This document shows positions 26,016 to 33,053 of a stretch of 64,000 nt of DNA, one piece after another. The stretch is from Rubrobacter sp. (lineage in GTDB: Bacteria > Actinomycetota > Rubrobacteria > Rubrobacterales > Rubrobacteraceae). The position numbers and the translations under genes are program-made. Below the pieces are notes generated by a model. It saw nothing but the letters and a program-made list of their open reading frames with translations. It did no database searches and was not told where the DNA came from. The DNA is taken from positions 1-64,000 of the forward strand of contig JACCWD010000115.1 of assembly GCA_013697825.1 (NCBI GenBank), in the 5' to 3' direction. Numbering within the stretch: position 1 is the first letter of the stretch; each line of letters begins with the position of its first letter.

Positions 26016-26118
26016 CTCCGCATGTTTCGTTCGGCTCGCGGAGTGGGGAAAAGGTATGGGCGGGGCTTAAGCTACGCGATAGACTGTGATAGTAGACACA
26101 AAGAAAGGGAAGCGGATT

Positions 26119-27969
26119 ATGAGCGAAGCCGGGCCGACGATGCCCTTCGACATGTGGTCGGAGTGGTTCAAAAACAACATGCAGGAAGGCGCGCCGTGGA
26201 TGATGCTCTCCCCCGGCGAAGAGGCCCACGTGAAGACGAAGGCGTCTTCCGGCAAAGACCCGCTCCTCTCCGTCGTCGAGAAGGCGTGGGAGGCGAACCC
26301 GCTGCAAAGCGTCCTCCCGATAAACTGGGTCGAGATCACACGCTCCCTGCAAACGCTGTGGATGCGCGAGATGCGCGACCCCGCCCGCGCCACGGAGCGC
26401 GCCATGGACTACAACATGCGCGCATGGAGCGCGGCGATGGAGTCGTGGAACAAAACCGTCTCGCGCCTATGGGGCATCCCCGTCGAGGAGGACGAAGGCT
26501 CCGACAGCCGCTTCTCCGCCCCTGAGTGGGAGACGAACCCGTACTACCACACGCTCAAGGAAACATACAACCTCGCCTCCGAATACCTCCTCGCCGAGGC
26601 CGAGGAGACCGACGGGGATGTCGGCACGGAGGAGCAACGTCGCCTCCGATTCCATCTCAAGCAGTTCGTTGACGCGATGGCCCCGGTCAACTTCCTCCTC
26701 ACGAATCCAGCGGCCCTCCGGCGGGTCGTCGAGACGGGCGGGGCGAGCGTCGCCGAGGGGACGAGGAACCTCCTCTCCGACGTTCAAGAAGGCAAGCTCA
26801 CCATGACCGACATCAACGCCTTCGAGCCGGGCGAGAATTTGGCGATAACCCCCGGAAAGGTCGTGTACCGCAACGAGCTCATCGAGCTGATCCAGTACGA
26901 GCCGCAGACCGAGAAGGTGCATGAGATCCCGATGGTGTGGATGCCGCCGTGGATCAACAAATACTACATCCTCGACATGCAGCCGAAGAACAGCTTCGTG
27001 AAGTACATGGTCGAGCAAGGCTATACGCTCTTCGTGGTAAGCTGGAAGAACCCCGACGCTTCGATGGACGAAACGACCTTCGAGGACTATATGCACAAAG
27101 GACCGCTGGCGGCGGCGGAGGTCGTCCGGGACATAACCGGAAGCGAGACCGTCAACCCGATGGGATATTGCATTGGAGGCACGCTGCTCGCGATGACGCT
27201 CGCATACCTCGAAGCTAAGGGCGAGAACAAGTTTGGCCCGGCGACGTTCATGGTCAGCTTGCAGGACTTCTCCGAGGTGGGGGACACGTCGGTGTTCGTG
27301 GACGACGAGCAGATCGACTTCATGGAGCGTCAAATGCTCGAGAGGGGCTACCTCGACAGCAGCTCGCTCTATAACATGTTCAACCTCCTCCGCTCCAACG
27401 ACCTCATCTGGTCGAACGTCGTCAACAATTACCTCATGGGACAAAAGCCCCCCTCCTTCGACCTCCTCTATTGGAACTCCGACAATACGAGGATGACGAG
27501 AAATGCCCACAGTTTCTACATGAGGAACACGTACCTCGAGAACAACCTCGTCGAGCCGGGCAAGGTGAAGCTCGACGACGTGCCGATAGATTTGAGTCGC
27601 ATCAAGCAGGATGTCTACGCTGTCGGGGCGGAGAAGGACCACATAGTGCCGTGGAAGTCCGCGTGGCGCATAAGCCAGCTCGTGAGCGGAAACACCCGCT
27701 TCATCATGGCTAACAGCGGCCACATCGCCGGGATAATAAACCACCCCGGCAAAGGCAAGGGCAACTTCTGGACGAACGACGCCGCCGAGAAAGCGAACAC
27801 CCCCGAGGAATGGTTCGAGACGACTGAAAAGCACGAAGGCTCGTGGTGGACCGACTGGGCGAAGTGGCTCTCCGAGCGGAGCGGCAAAAAGAAAGACCCG
27901 CCGAAGATGGGAAGCGAGAAACATCCGCCGTTGGAAGACGCTCCCGGAACTTACGTGAAGGAGAGATAA
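26119..27969 (+). CDS. phaC: Poly(3-hydroxyalkanoate) synthase, class I-like
   Basis: GYCIGGTLLAMTLAYL lipase-like box Cys; MPPWINKYYILDMQPKNSFVKYMVEQGYTLFVVSWKNPD; ANSGHIAGIINHPGKGKGNFW. Confidence 0.9.
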   Translation: MSEAGPTMPFDMWSEWFKNNMQEGAPWMMLSPGEEAHVKTKASSGKDPLLSVVEKAWEANPLQSVLPINWVEITRSLQTLWMREMRDPARATERAMDYNMRAWSAAMESWNKTVSRLWGIPVEEDEGSDSRFSAPEWETNPYYHTLKETYNLASEYLLAEAEETDGDVGTEEQRRLRFHLKQFVDAMAPVNFLLTNPAALRRVVETGGASVAEGTRNLLSDVQEGKLTMTDINAFEPGENLAITPGKVVYRNELIELIQYEPQTEKVHEIPMVWMPPWINKYYILDMQPKNSFVKYMVEQGYTLFVVSWKNPDASMDETTFEDYMHKGPLAAAEVVRDITGSETVNPMGYCIGGTLLAMTLAYLEAKGENKFGPATFMVSLQDFSEVGDTSVFVDDEQIDFMERQMLERGYLDSSSLYNMFNLLRSNDLIWSNVVNNYLMGQKPPSFDLLYWNSDNTRMTRNAHSFYMRNTYLENNLVEPGKVKLDDVPIDLSRIKQDVYAVGAEKDHIVPWKSAWRISQLVSGNTRFIMANSGHIAGIINHPGKGKGNFWTNDAAEKANTPEEWFETTEKHEGSWWTDWAKWLSERSGKKKDPPKMGSEKHPPLEDAPGTYVKER

Positions 27970-28891: not shown

Positions 28892-29980
28892 CTATGCGTG
28901 TCCCGCCGAGTCCTTTTGGTTCGAGCGCTCGGCGAGCCATTCGTTGATCTTCGGCCAAAGCCCCTTCTTGGCTCCGCGCCCGGTCATGAGGCCGACGTGG
29001 CCCGCGTCTTGTACGAAGAACTCCTTGTCCTCGCTGGAGACGTATTCCATCGTCGCCTCGGCTTGCGGGATGGAGCAAATATGGTCTTTCGTTCCCGCGA
29101 TGTTGAGGAGCGGGGCTTTTATGTTCGAGAGATCCACGCGGCGGCCGCGGAGCTTGATCTCACCTTTCACCAGCTTGTCTTGCTGGTAAAACTCGGTGAT
29201 CCACTGCTTGAAAGCCGCTCCGGGGAACGGGGGGCCGTCGTTTACCCACTTGTTCATCGCGAGCCAGCCCTCCATCGGCTTGTCCTCGAAGAGCCGCTCC
29301 CACATGCCCACGTACGTCCCGACGTAGTTCGTGACCGGTTTCATCATCCGGTTCCCGGTGTCTATGATCTCCCCCGGAATGTTTCCGAAGGCATCTGCCA
29401 GAAGTCCCGGCTTGAGGTATTTGTCGTTGGTGAAGAGCGAATAGAGTCCGATGGAATCCCTCGGGAAGGAGGTCGGGGCGGTCATGAGGACGAGGTTCTT
29501 CAGAGTGTCGGGGAAGAGCGAGGCGTACATCGCGCTCATCGTCCCGCCCATGCAATATCCGAAGAGCGTGAAGTCGTCGGTGCCGGAGGTTCTCATGACC
29601 TTCTTCGCGGCTCTCGGGATGTAGTCGAGAACGTAGTGTTCGAAGGACATGTCCTTGTCCTCGTCGCCTGGAATTCCCCAGTCGAGCATGTACACGTCGA
29701 AGCCCTCGCTCGTGAGGTATTCGATGAGGCTGTTTCCCGGCATGAGGTCGAGGATGTACGGGCGGTTTATGAGGGCGTAGATTATGAGGATCGGGGTTTT
29801 GTGCGTCTTCTCTTTGGACGGCTCGTAACGGTAGAGTTTGGCTTTGTTCTTCGTCCAGACAACTTCTTTGGGGGTTTGCCCGGTGTCGGCCTGCGCGCCC
29901 TCCATGACGATACGCATGCCTTGCGAGTACTTGTCGAAGAAGTTCTCCGTGTCCGCCGGAACGAAAGTTTGCTCGGTCAT
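28892..29980 (-). CDS. phaC: Class III poly(3-hydroxyalkanoate) synthase subunit PhaC
   Basis: 362 aa; FTLFGYCMGGTMSAMYASLFP; PILIIYALINRPYILDLMPGNSLIEYLTSEGFDVYMLDWGIPG. Confidence 0.92.
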   Translation of the reverse strand: MTEQTFVPADTENFFDKYSQGMRIVMEGAQADTGQTPKEVVWTKNKAKLYRYEPSKEKTHKTPILIIYALINRPYILDLMPGNSLIEYLTSEGFDVYMLDWGIPGDEDKDMSFEHYVLDYIPRAAKKVMRTSGTDDFTLFGYCMGGTMSAMYASLFPDTLKNLVLMTAPTSFPRDSIGLYSLFTNDKYLKPGLLADAFGNIPGEIIDTGNRMMKPVTNYVGTYVGMWERLFEDKPMEGWLAMNKWVNDGPPFPGAAFKQWITEFYQQDKLVKGEIKLRGRRVDLSNIKAPLLNIAGTKDHICSIPQAEATMEYVSSEDKEFFVQDAGHVGLMTGRGAKKGLWPKINEWLAERSNQKDSAGHA

Positions 29981-31225
29981 TTATGCGTCTCCCTTCTTAC
30001 GGACATCTTCGACGGTGATCTGGCCGTCCGCCCCGGTTCCGTTGACTTCGGCGAGGTTTACGTTCATGTCCTCGGCCTTTCGCCTCGCGGCGTCCGTCGC
30101 CCGGATTTCAGAGGCGTTCGCTGAGACGCGCGCCGATGCGTTCGCCGGGATACTCGCCGGAGCTTCGCTGTTGGATGAGATGTTCGCGAGGGCGGCGAGG
30201 ACTTGGTCGAGCTTGCTCTCCACCTCATCCATGCGCCCGCTCAAGCTATCCGACGCGCTCGTGTCGGCAGGCTGGTCGATTGCCGTGGAAACTGCGTCGA
30301 GTTTCCCTTCCACGCGATCCATGCGCTCTCCGAGGCCGTCGGTCGCGCTCGTGTCGGCGGGGCGATCCACCGCGGTGGATATACCGTCGAGCTTGCCTTC
30401 GAGGTCGCCGAGACGCTTCTCCATCCCGTCGTTCGCCTTGTCGGAGCGTTTGGCGAGCTTGTCCTCGAGCTTGTCGAGTCGCTTCTCGATCTTTTCCTCG
30501 GTTTTGTCCACTTTCTTCTCGACCTTGCCGAGGTGCTTCTCGATGTCGGAGATCTTCCCGTCGGCGAGCGAGGCGGCCTGGCTGTCGCCCATGTCCTCGA
30601 CGGCGTCCTCGATGTTGTCCACCTTCTCTTCGAGCGCGACCACGAGCGACGCGACGCGGGTTATGTCGCTCCGGGTCGGAATCTGGATGTTGTGGAGATA
30701 CTCCTCGGACTGCCGTTTGTAAATCTTGTAAAAGCTCGCGTAATTCTGGAGAAAGCGGCTTCCTTGTTCGAGGAACTCTTCCCTCTCCACAATATCCTGA
30801 ACGAACTCCGAGTACGGGCCGCTCGTCGCGTTGTACCAGTGGACGGCGAACTCGAGCGGGTCTTTCGGCATTTGTTCGACGGCCATGAGGTTCTCCCGCG
30901 CCTGATCGAGCATTTCCATCCATCTCGGAGCCATGCCCATCATCTCGGTCGCGTTCTCGGCGGATTTGCGCCAGTTCTCCATCGTCATGTCAACGCCTTT
31001 TTGCCACGCGCCCGCGGCGGCATCGGTGCCGTTCCCGCCGCCGATGGAACCCATGCTCCGCATGGTTTGCTCGCGCATGTTCTCCATGCCCTCATACCAC
31101 CGGCGGTAAAGACCCCATGGATCCATATAGTTCGCGCCGCCTCGGTCGAGCGAGTCCGTCCACATACGAGATCCCGTCTCGTACCATTGCCGCCAAAGGT
31201 TCGTGGGATCCATTCTCTCAGTCAA
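29981..31225 (-). CDS. phaE: Class III PHA synthase subunit PhaE with coiled-coil region and C-terminal E3-binding-like domain
   Basis: Adjacent to class III phaC; PhaE-like N-terminus; helical repeats KRLDKLEDKLAKRS...; C-terminal ATDAARRKAEDMNVNLAEVNGTGADGQITVEDVRKK. TTG start at 31225 (SD GGGAGGG) inferred; ORF extends to 31255. Confidence 0.85.
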   Translation of the reverse strand: MTERMDPTNLWRQWYETGSRMWTDSLDRGGANYMDPWGLYRRWYEGMENMREQTMRSMGSIGGGNGTDAAAGAWQKGVDMTMENWRKSAENATEMMGMAPRWMEMLDQARENLMAVEQMPKDPLEFAVHWYNATSGPYSEFVQDIVEREEFLEQGSRFLQNYASFYKIYKRQSEEYLHNIQIPTRSDITRVASLVVALEEKVDNIEDAVEDMGDSQAASLADGKISDIEKHLGKVEKKVDKTEEKIEKRLDKLEDKLAKRSDKANDGMEKRLGDLEGKLDGISTAVDRPADTSATDGLGERMDRVEGKLDAVSTAIDQPADTSASDSLSGRMDEVESKLDQVLAALANISSNSEAPASIPANASARVSANASEIRATDAARRKAEDMNVNLAEVNGTGADGQITVEDVRKKGDA

Positions 31226-31385
31226 GCTCGAAACCCTCCCAGGGTCTTTTTCCAATTACTTTCCTGAAATTTCATTATATCCGATTTAGAGTAAATATAT
31301 GCGTAGTACATATACCGAGGGAGCGGAGACGCAACGAGATGGAGGAGGCGCGATCCTTTCCCCGACTCCTCCATACCTCGAATTC

Positions 31386-33053
31386 TCAAAGCTCCCGGAG
31401 TTCTCGCCGCAAAAACTTCCCCGTCGCCGTCTTCGGAACCTCGTCGAGGAAGGCGATGCTTCGGGGATATTTGTATGCCGCCATGTTCTCTTTGCAATGC
31501 GCGATGAGGTCTTCCTCGGAGACGGAGTTTCCGTCTTTCAACGCGACGAACGCCTTCACCGTCTCGCCCCGGTATTCGTCGGGTATGCCGACCACGGCGG
31601 CTTCGCGAACCGCCGGGTGCGTATAAAGCATGTCCTCGACCTCGCGCGGCCACACTTTATAGCCCGAGACGTTTATCATGTCTTTCTTCCGATCCACGAT
31701 GTAAAAGAAGCCGTCCTCGTCCATGACGGCTACGTCGCCCGTGAGGAAGAAGCCGTCGTGGAAAGCCTTCTCGGTCTCCTCCGGCTTCTCCCAGTAATGA
31801 GAGAAGATCATCGGCCCGCGAGCCGCGAACTCCCCCGACTCACCGACCGCGACTTCCTTCGACGGGTCTTCGAGGCTCACGAGACGCGCCTCGCACCCCG
31901 GTATCGGGACGCCGACGGACAACGCTCCGCTGTTTTTGTCCACGGGAGCCTTCGTCCCGTATGGAGTCCCGTGTGTCGGAGAGTTCGATTCGGTGAGTCC
32001 GTAAATATTGTGGATGTACACACCGAACTTCTCCTCGAACTGCTCGGTGATCGACGGCGCGATGGGCGCGCCTCCACTGTACACCTTCGTGAGCGAGGCG
32101 AGGGCGTCTTCTTTCGCCCCGGAGACGTTCATCAACGAGAGGAAGACCGTGATCGCCCCGACGGTGAACGTCGGGCGCCACTTTTCGACGAGCCGGAGCG
32201 TCTCGGCGGGGTCGGGACGATGGTACAAAACGAGCGGTATTCCGGCGAGTCCGGCGACTCCGATGTGTCCGACGAGGCCCGTTATGTGGAAGAGCGGCGC
32301 GACCCCGAGAACCGAGTCTTCATCGTCGAGTCGCATCCAAACCCGGTACACCTCCGAGTTGTACGCGACGTTTGAGTGCGTCTCGACCGCCCCCTTCGGC
32401 CTCCCCGTCGTCCCGGACGTGTACACGAGCATCGCCATGTCCGCGGGCGTTGTCGGGACTTTCACCGAAGCGTCCGGCTCCGTCGCCCGTATCGTCTCCA
32501 TCAAATCGTCCGCGCCTTCGTGCTCGATCCTCTCGGCTGCGGCGAGGTTCGGGCGGTCGTAGCCCTCGGGGAGAAAATCGAGTTCGCTCGTCGTGAAGAC
32601 GTGTTCGACGGCGGTGGCGGAAACCACGTCTTTGGCGACGTCCCGATACAAACTTTCGAGGCAAACGAGGATCTTCGCTCCGGAGTCGTTGAGGTGGTAT
32701 TCGATCTCCCGCCCTTTGAGCATCGGGTTGAGCGGCACGACCGCCGCCCCACGCTTCCATGCTCCGTAAAGCGCGACGAGGAATTGCGGGTTGTTTTGGA
32801 GATAAACCGCCACCCGGTCGCCCTTTTCTATTTCCCGGCTCGCGAGGACGGCGGCGAAGCGGTTCGCCATATCGTCGAGTTCCGAGTACGAGATCGTCTC
32901 GTCGAAATAGCGTATGGCATCGGTGTTCGGGACGCGCCTTGCGGAGTCCTCGAAGAGATCGGCCATGCTCTTCGAGGGCATCGGAAGCTCTTTTGGGACG
33001 TACTCGGCGTATCGTTCCAGCCACGGCTTCGCTTCGTACACGGACGACGGCAT
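31386..33053 (-). CDS. AMP-forming acyl-CoA synthetase/ligase
   Basis: 555 aa; LVYTSGTTGRPKGAVETHSN; FLTGDVAVMDEDGFFYIVDRKKDMINVSGYKVWPREVE. Confidence 0.92.
   Translation of the reverse strand: MPSSVYEAKPWLERYAEYVPKELPMPSKSMADLFEDSARRVPNTDAIRYFDETISYSELDDMANRFAAVLASREIEKGDRVAVYLQNNPQFLVALYGAWKRGAAVVPLNPMLKGREIEYHLNDSGAKILVCLESLYRDVAKDVVSATAVEHVFTTSELDFLPEGYDRPNLAAAERIEHEGADDLMETIRATEPDASVKVPTTPADMAMLVYTSGTTGRPKGAVETHSNVAYNSEVYRVWMRLDDEDSVLGVAPLFHITGLVGHIGVAGLAGIPLVLYHRPDPAETLRLVEKWRPTFTVGAITVFLSLMNVSGAKEDALASLTKVYSGGAPIAPSITEQFEEKFGVYIHNIYGLTESNSPTHGTPYGTKAPVDKNSGALSVGVPIPGCEARLVSLEDPSKEVAVGESGEFAARGPMIFSHYWEKPEETEKAFHDGFFLTGDVAVMDEDGFFYIVDRKKDMINVSGYKVWPREVEDMLYTHPAVREAAVVGIPDEYRGETVKAFVALKDGNSVSEEDLIAHCKENMAAYKYPRSIAFLDEVPKTATGKFLRRELREL

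Follow-up and report, generated by a model that had tools for sequence, protein, structure and literature searches.

A peripheral-subunit-binding domain at the C terminus of PhaE in Rubrobacteraceae, a candidate docking module on a PHA synthase

Introduction

Peripheral-subunit-binding domains (PSBDs, also called E3-binding domains) belong to the textbook picture of the pyruvate dehydrogenase (PDH) family. In E2 proteins, E1 and E3 are bound through basic residues clustered around helix I of the PSBD, and the residues that make contact are expected to be conserved from one E2 to another (PMC6270654). As to polymer synthesis, phaCE operons have been described in Rubrobacter (PMC8146576), and the passages on PhaE consulted there make no mention of a C-terminal PSBD. 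Well known as the PSBD is in itself, its placement on a PHA synthase subunit appears undescribed: the open literature searched yielded no account of an E3-binding domain on PhaE or on a phasin, or of this architecture. Here we analyze a phaE-phaC locus from the Rubrobacteraceae, a family of hardy soil bacteria, in which PhaE ends in such a domain.

Results

The window (the whole stretch of DNA analyzed, 64,000 nucleotides) is one contig of a 3.2-Mb draft genome from Rubrobacteraceae with a completeness of 82%. Of the named relatives found, Rubrobacter sp. MGR_bin253 is the nearest, with 74% identity in the best PhaE segment. The minus-strand pair formed by phaE and phaC (Table 1) is a PHA synthase operon of the class III type, and this gene order is kept over many genera in the related loci examined. 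An iron alcohol dehydrogenase gene and a metallo-hydrolase-like gene also flank the pair; together with the class I phaC and the acyl-CoA synthetase gene, they make up a neighborhood that is kept in several other genera. No lipoyl-dehydrogenase (lpd) motif was found in the window or in six pha neighborhoods, and a tblastn search found no PhaE in plasmids. The list of open reading frames starts phaE at a TTG at 31255. A second TTG, at 31225, is more likely to be the start codon, judging from the sequence GGGAGGG 8 nt upstream and from homology that begins near residue 14.

Table 1. Features of the phaE-phaC region (positions in the window; residue numbers refer to PhaE)
Feature	Position	Strand	Remarks
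Class I phaC of same pha region	26086..27969	+	TIGR01838, 666 bits, cut-off 623 passed
Class III phaC	28892..29980	-	Directly downstream of phaE; TIGR01836, 390 bits, cut-off 365 passed
phaE open frame	29981..31255	-	424 codons from TTG; directly upstream of class III phaC
PSBD / E3-binding domain, residues 386-419 (ATDAARRKAEDMNVNLAEVNGTGADGQITVEDVR)	29999..30100	-	PF02817
Ala/Ser/Asn/Pro-rich linker, residues 356-384	30104..30190	-	20.8% mean pairwise identity; pLDDT below 50
2.5 copies of a 30-residue coiled-coil repeat	30191..30406	-	Starts at residues 284, 314, 344
Long predicted helix (coiled coil), residues 227-296	30368..30577	-	Full-length model; many coiled-coil family matches
PhaR/PhaE-like core, residues 130-282	30410..30868	-	TIGR02132, 67.2 bits, below cut-off
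Acyl-CoA synthetase (AMP-binding), upstream of phaE	31386..33053	-	PF00501/PF13193; next to phaE in other genera too

An earlier note on this DNA had named the protein PhaE. Operon context and homology bear this out, although both family models stay below their cut-offs: the PhaR model TIGR02132 with 67.2 bits (E 1.7e-18) against 148.4, and the PhaE model TIGR01834 with 11.7 bits against 154.95. The same note had described three repeats of about 30 residues. The repeats are real and their period is exactly 30 residues, but there are only 2.5 copies, the first two nearly full and the third diverging after about 12 residues. They sit within a longer predicted coiled coil, with helices at residues 304-327 and 335-359 in a full-length model; this model, built from a two-row alignment, has a mean pLDDT of 48 and is usable for secondary structure and for the C-terminal domain only. 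In a close relative (L014) the repeats are shorter; their copy number is thus not conserved, unlike the PSBD.

The presence of a PSBD at the C terminus, also claimed in that note, was confirmed by a Pfam search, in which PF02817 matched PhaE with 35.7 bits (E = 1e-8; curated cut-off 23.7). In a whole-genome scan the domain scored 39.7 bits against the same family. The solved structures closest to the 42-residue tail are the PSBD of PDH E2 (1w4i, E = 5.6e-7) and those of other E2s. The full-length model is at its most confident in the C-terminal 40 residues (pLDDT about 80), where a helix (373-397), a turn (401-403) and a second helix (415-423) succeed one another as in a PSBD. When modeled in isolation from its single sequence, the domain reached a moderate pLDDT of 73, and a Foldseek search with that small model returned no match. 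NCBIfam E2 models match PhaE weakly, via stretches ending in the PSBD, and neither a lipoyl nor an acyltransferase domain is present among the matches listed. On the Pfam match, we regard the last 40 residues of PhaE as a real E3-binding domain.

Two trivial explanations were considered. A chance match to PF02817 is ruled out by the E-value of 1e-8 together with conservation over many genera, and a frameshift or assembly artefact by the finding of the same architecture in two single-contig genomes (G014 and G015).

Conservation along PhaE was measured with 28 Rubrobacteraceae sequences. Mean pairwise identity is 72.7% in the PSBD, which aligns without gaps, against 68.6% in the PhaR-like core, 41.9% in the N-terminal part and 20.8% in the linker. 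No other part of PhaE in this alignment is as conserved as the PSBD. This argues that the domain is under selection, and its strict conservation supports a real function. The domain is present in 32 of the 47 PhaE-like frames collected; the other 15 are mostly second, diverged paralogues or broken or truncated frames. One of them (L143) is a primary PhaE with a normal end. The PSBD thus belongs to the primary PhaE, yet is dispensable for PhaE identity. Of the 347 actinomycete genomes drawn, 31 from Rubrobacteraceae encode a PhaE of this kind; one further genome gave a marginal match (E 2e-5). The second, diverged paralogue lacking the PSBD was seen in several genomes (L134, L135, L136, L137, L138, L139 and L140); that of L139 adjoins a class III phaC of its own and the L140 copy is broken by a stop.

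To compare the PhaE domain with its E2 counterparts, PSBDs from Rubrobacteraceae (36 rows from E2s, 27 from PhaE and 26 from bL20) were aligned on 36 positions. Positions 7 and 28 we take to be the equivalents of Arg135 and Arg156 of Bacillus E2, residues with a role in E3 binding. The E2 domains have Pro4 in 36/36 rows, Arg7 in 35/36 and Arg28 in 35/36, with a mean net charge of +1.7. In PhaE, Pro4 is never found (0/27) and Arg28 is rare (3/27, mostly replaced by Gln), whereas Arg7 is kept in 25/27 rows and a basic residue at position 8 in all 27; the net charge is -0.4. As a set, the E2 signature of Pro4, Arg7 and Arg28 is therefore absent from PhaE. Ala10, Gly22, Gly24, Gly27 and Asp33 are invariant in the PhaE domains, as in E2, and so are, in all 27 rows, Thr3, Arg8, Thr30 and Arg35, which are positions of surface type. 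In the bL20 domains position 7 is mostly Glu (Arg in 1/26) and the mean net charge is -7.9.

Outside Rubrobacteraceae, in 222 actinomycete genomes, the best 50 matches to a profile of the non-E2 domains were all E2s (best matches only, so that rare non-E2 PSBDs in these genomes could be missed). Pro4 is present in 54 of the 55 PSBD segments of these proteins, the remaining one having an X at this position, and Arg28 in 39 of 55. A tree in which the E2 rows are held together was not rejected (p-AU 0.90), with few forks resolved by the 36 columns, and is weakly consistent with a single origin of the non-E2 domains. Three actinomycete E2s (L178, L186 and L193) carry two PSBDs in tandem. The second domain of L178 and L186, the clearest cases (e.g., GTGPDGAITVADV), resembles the non-E2 class of Rubrobacter and is a possible source of it.

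PhaE is one of several carriers. The genome to which the window belongs encodes 13 PSBDs in nine proteins, namely four E2s, PhaE and four others. Ten genomes, this one and nine relatives, have 4-15 PSBDs each; other actinomycetes mostly have 1-4. A single non-E2 class, devoid of the helix-I Pro, is attached to several unrelated Rubrobacteraceae proteins. Besides PhaE and bL20, these are coiled-coil proteins, phasin-like or helical proteins, Ala/Gln-rich proteins that hold 2-4 PSBDs each, and small proteins that share a conserved domain. In four genomes (G014, G015, G016 and G028), the PSBD proteins found were the E2s and PhaE alone.

The gene for bL20 is single-copy. A complete bL20 frame was available in 37 genomes: it codes for at least 178 residues in 21 of them and is of ordinary size (118-135) in the other 16. 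The extended proteins whose sequences were obtained here carry 2-3 acidic PSBDs after a linker; that of the genome under study (L011, G000:C160:10373-11290) consists of bL20 followed by three of them. Frames of bL20 were further noted at L081, L085, L092, L093, L095-L098 and L102, and the case is perhaps more surprising than that of PhaE. Proteins with Ala/Gln/Gly repeats and 1-4 PSBDs each, often encoded side by side, were seen at L005, L076, L077, L078, L090 and L094; by eye, the 1172-residue product of L090 seems to run on into other stress-type domains. The PSBD of the small proteins (L008, L076, L077, L078 and a more distant case, L006) follows a conserved, uncharacterized domain (VPVLNVEEINLELQDLRAHIS...VGVDAYLNAVKLEIKGVEAQ), and PF02817 is the only Pfam family above cut-off. 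The pha regions of G037 and G035 encode additional phasin-like or helical proteins with a PSBD (L103:566-1681 and L104:824-1729).

Discussion

We consider it fairly probable that the PSBD of PhaE has been repurposed as a docking module, tethered flexibly to the synthase or granule. The coiled coil and the flexible linker would hold the domain out from the PhaC-PhaE complex, hence from the granule surface, in the manner in which E2 linkers offer their PSBD to E1 and E3. Some partner protein is thus probably drawn to the synthase or to the granule surface by this domain. The non-E2 class may have arisen once, from an E2-type PSBD in the Rubrobacteraceae lineage, and become fixed on PhaE; it would then have spread to bL20, to coiled-coil proteins and to the multi-PSBD Ala/Gln-rich proteins, acquiring a surface charge of its own on each. 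As these charges differ among carriers, partner specificity has probably diverged. A diverged ligand of PhaE is favored by the residue changes throughout the class, by the charge reversal in bL20 and by the lack of lpd-like genes next to pha. The conserved small domain could instead serve folding, stability or self-association.

A special case of such docking, in line with the earlier note's suggestion of a tethered dehydrogenase, would be the binding of E3 (lipoamide dehydrogenase) or E1 in the E2 style, so that a dehydrogenase complex or free E3 is tethered and acetyl-CoA or NAD(P)H is made beside the granule. The retention of Arg7 and of a base at position 8 in helix I fits this reading, and E1 and E3 are the only known PSBD ligands in the four genomes where PhaE is the sole non-E2 carrier. 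The loss of Arg28 does not by itself exclude it either, since this residue varies in true E2s outside the family. Pro4, on the other hand, is present in every readable E2 PSBD examined and in none from PhaE, Arg28 itself is mostly gone, and no lpd motif lies nearby. Moreover, the same class is found on bL20 and other non-metabolic proteins; with Glu in place of the helix-I Arg and a strongly acidic surface on bL20, docking to E1 or E3 cannot be a general rule for it. Overall, E3 or E1 is a possible but doubtful partner. A broader proposal takes the PSBD as a general C-terminal docking tag, borne by PhaE, by phasin-like proteins, by repeat proteins with several PSBDs and by bL20 in about half of the genomes; it would direct these proteins, and with them granules, scaffolds and ribosomes, to shared or matching receptors. 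This we hold to be unlikely. In a stricter form, PhaE, phasin-like proteins, multi-PSBD proteins and bL20 would be gathered through homotypic contacts or one shared receptor, the multi-PSBD proteins serving as cross-linking scaffolds. Such a network agrees with the number of tagged non-E2 proteins that a single family encodes, several of which have 2-4 PSBDs, and with the extra carriers in the pha regions of G035 and G037. Its surfaces, however, differ in charge from class to class. The PhaE domain is also kept where no other non-E2 PSBD was found, which makes a network unlikely as its original role. Overall, we rate the network as very unlikely.

Binding to nucleic acid, linking the granule to the nucleoid as PhaM and PhaF do, seems a remote prospect. 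Some nucleoid proteins, those of the Lsr2 type, have PSBD-like DNA-binding folds, and helix I of PhaE is basic; yet Lsr2 is absent among the Pfam matches listed, the sequence has no RGR loop, and the PhaE domain has almost no net charge and the bL20 domains a strongly negative one. Nothing relevant on Lsr2 with a PSBD was found in the open literature searched. An ordinary C-terminal cap, which would lack a partner and serve folding or solubility passively, is quite unlikely in our judgment: the PSBD ranks among the smallest autonomously folding domains (PMC6270654), and some PhaE frames of the family (L143 and the second paralogues) do without it, but a passive cap needs none of the conservation seen here, which includes surface-type positions.

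On the docking-module reading, a PSBD on a subunit of a bioplastic synthase offers a concrete handle on protein recruitment to PHA granules and could serve as a tag for loading enzymes onto them. Should the partner be E3 or E1, polymer synthesis would be physically linked to the supply of acetyl-CoA; should it be another protein, there is a new PSBD ligand to discover. To find the domain on bL20 as well, in Rubrobacteraceae, is surprising in itself, and a general docking tag, if true, would amount to a cellular addressing system built from a module of metabolic enzymes.

Comparison with known systems

With the PhaE and PhaR subunits of class III and IV synthases (TIGR01834 and TIGR02132), the protein described here shares the PhaR-like core, the coiled coil and the operon with a class III PhaC; it differs in falling below both model cut-offs and in the added C-terminal PSBD. 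The E2 PSBD (PF02817, best PDB match 1w4i) agrees with the PhaE domain in profile, length and predicted helix-turn-helix, as well as in the GTG loop, the conserved Asp, the helix-I Arg pair and presentation on a flexible linker. Unlike E2, PhaE has no lipoyl or acyltransferase domain, has lost Pro4 and mostly has Gln at the equivalent of Arg156, and its PSBD lies at the C terminus with a net charge about zero rather than positive. A likeness also exists to the mammalian E3-binding protein (protein X), which has no acyltransferase activity and brings in a partner through its PSBD (PMC6270654), although that protein is an E2 homologue within the PDH complex and PhaE is not. The bL20 proteins with C-terminal PSBDs (L081, L085, L092 and L011) carry the same non-E2 class of domain as PhaE, albeit as 2-3 tandem, strongly acidic copies in which Glu replaces the helix-I Arg.
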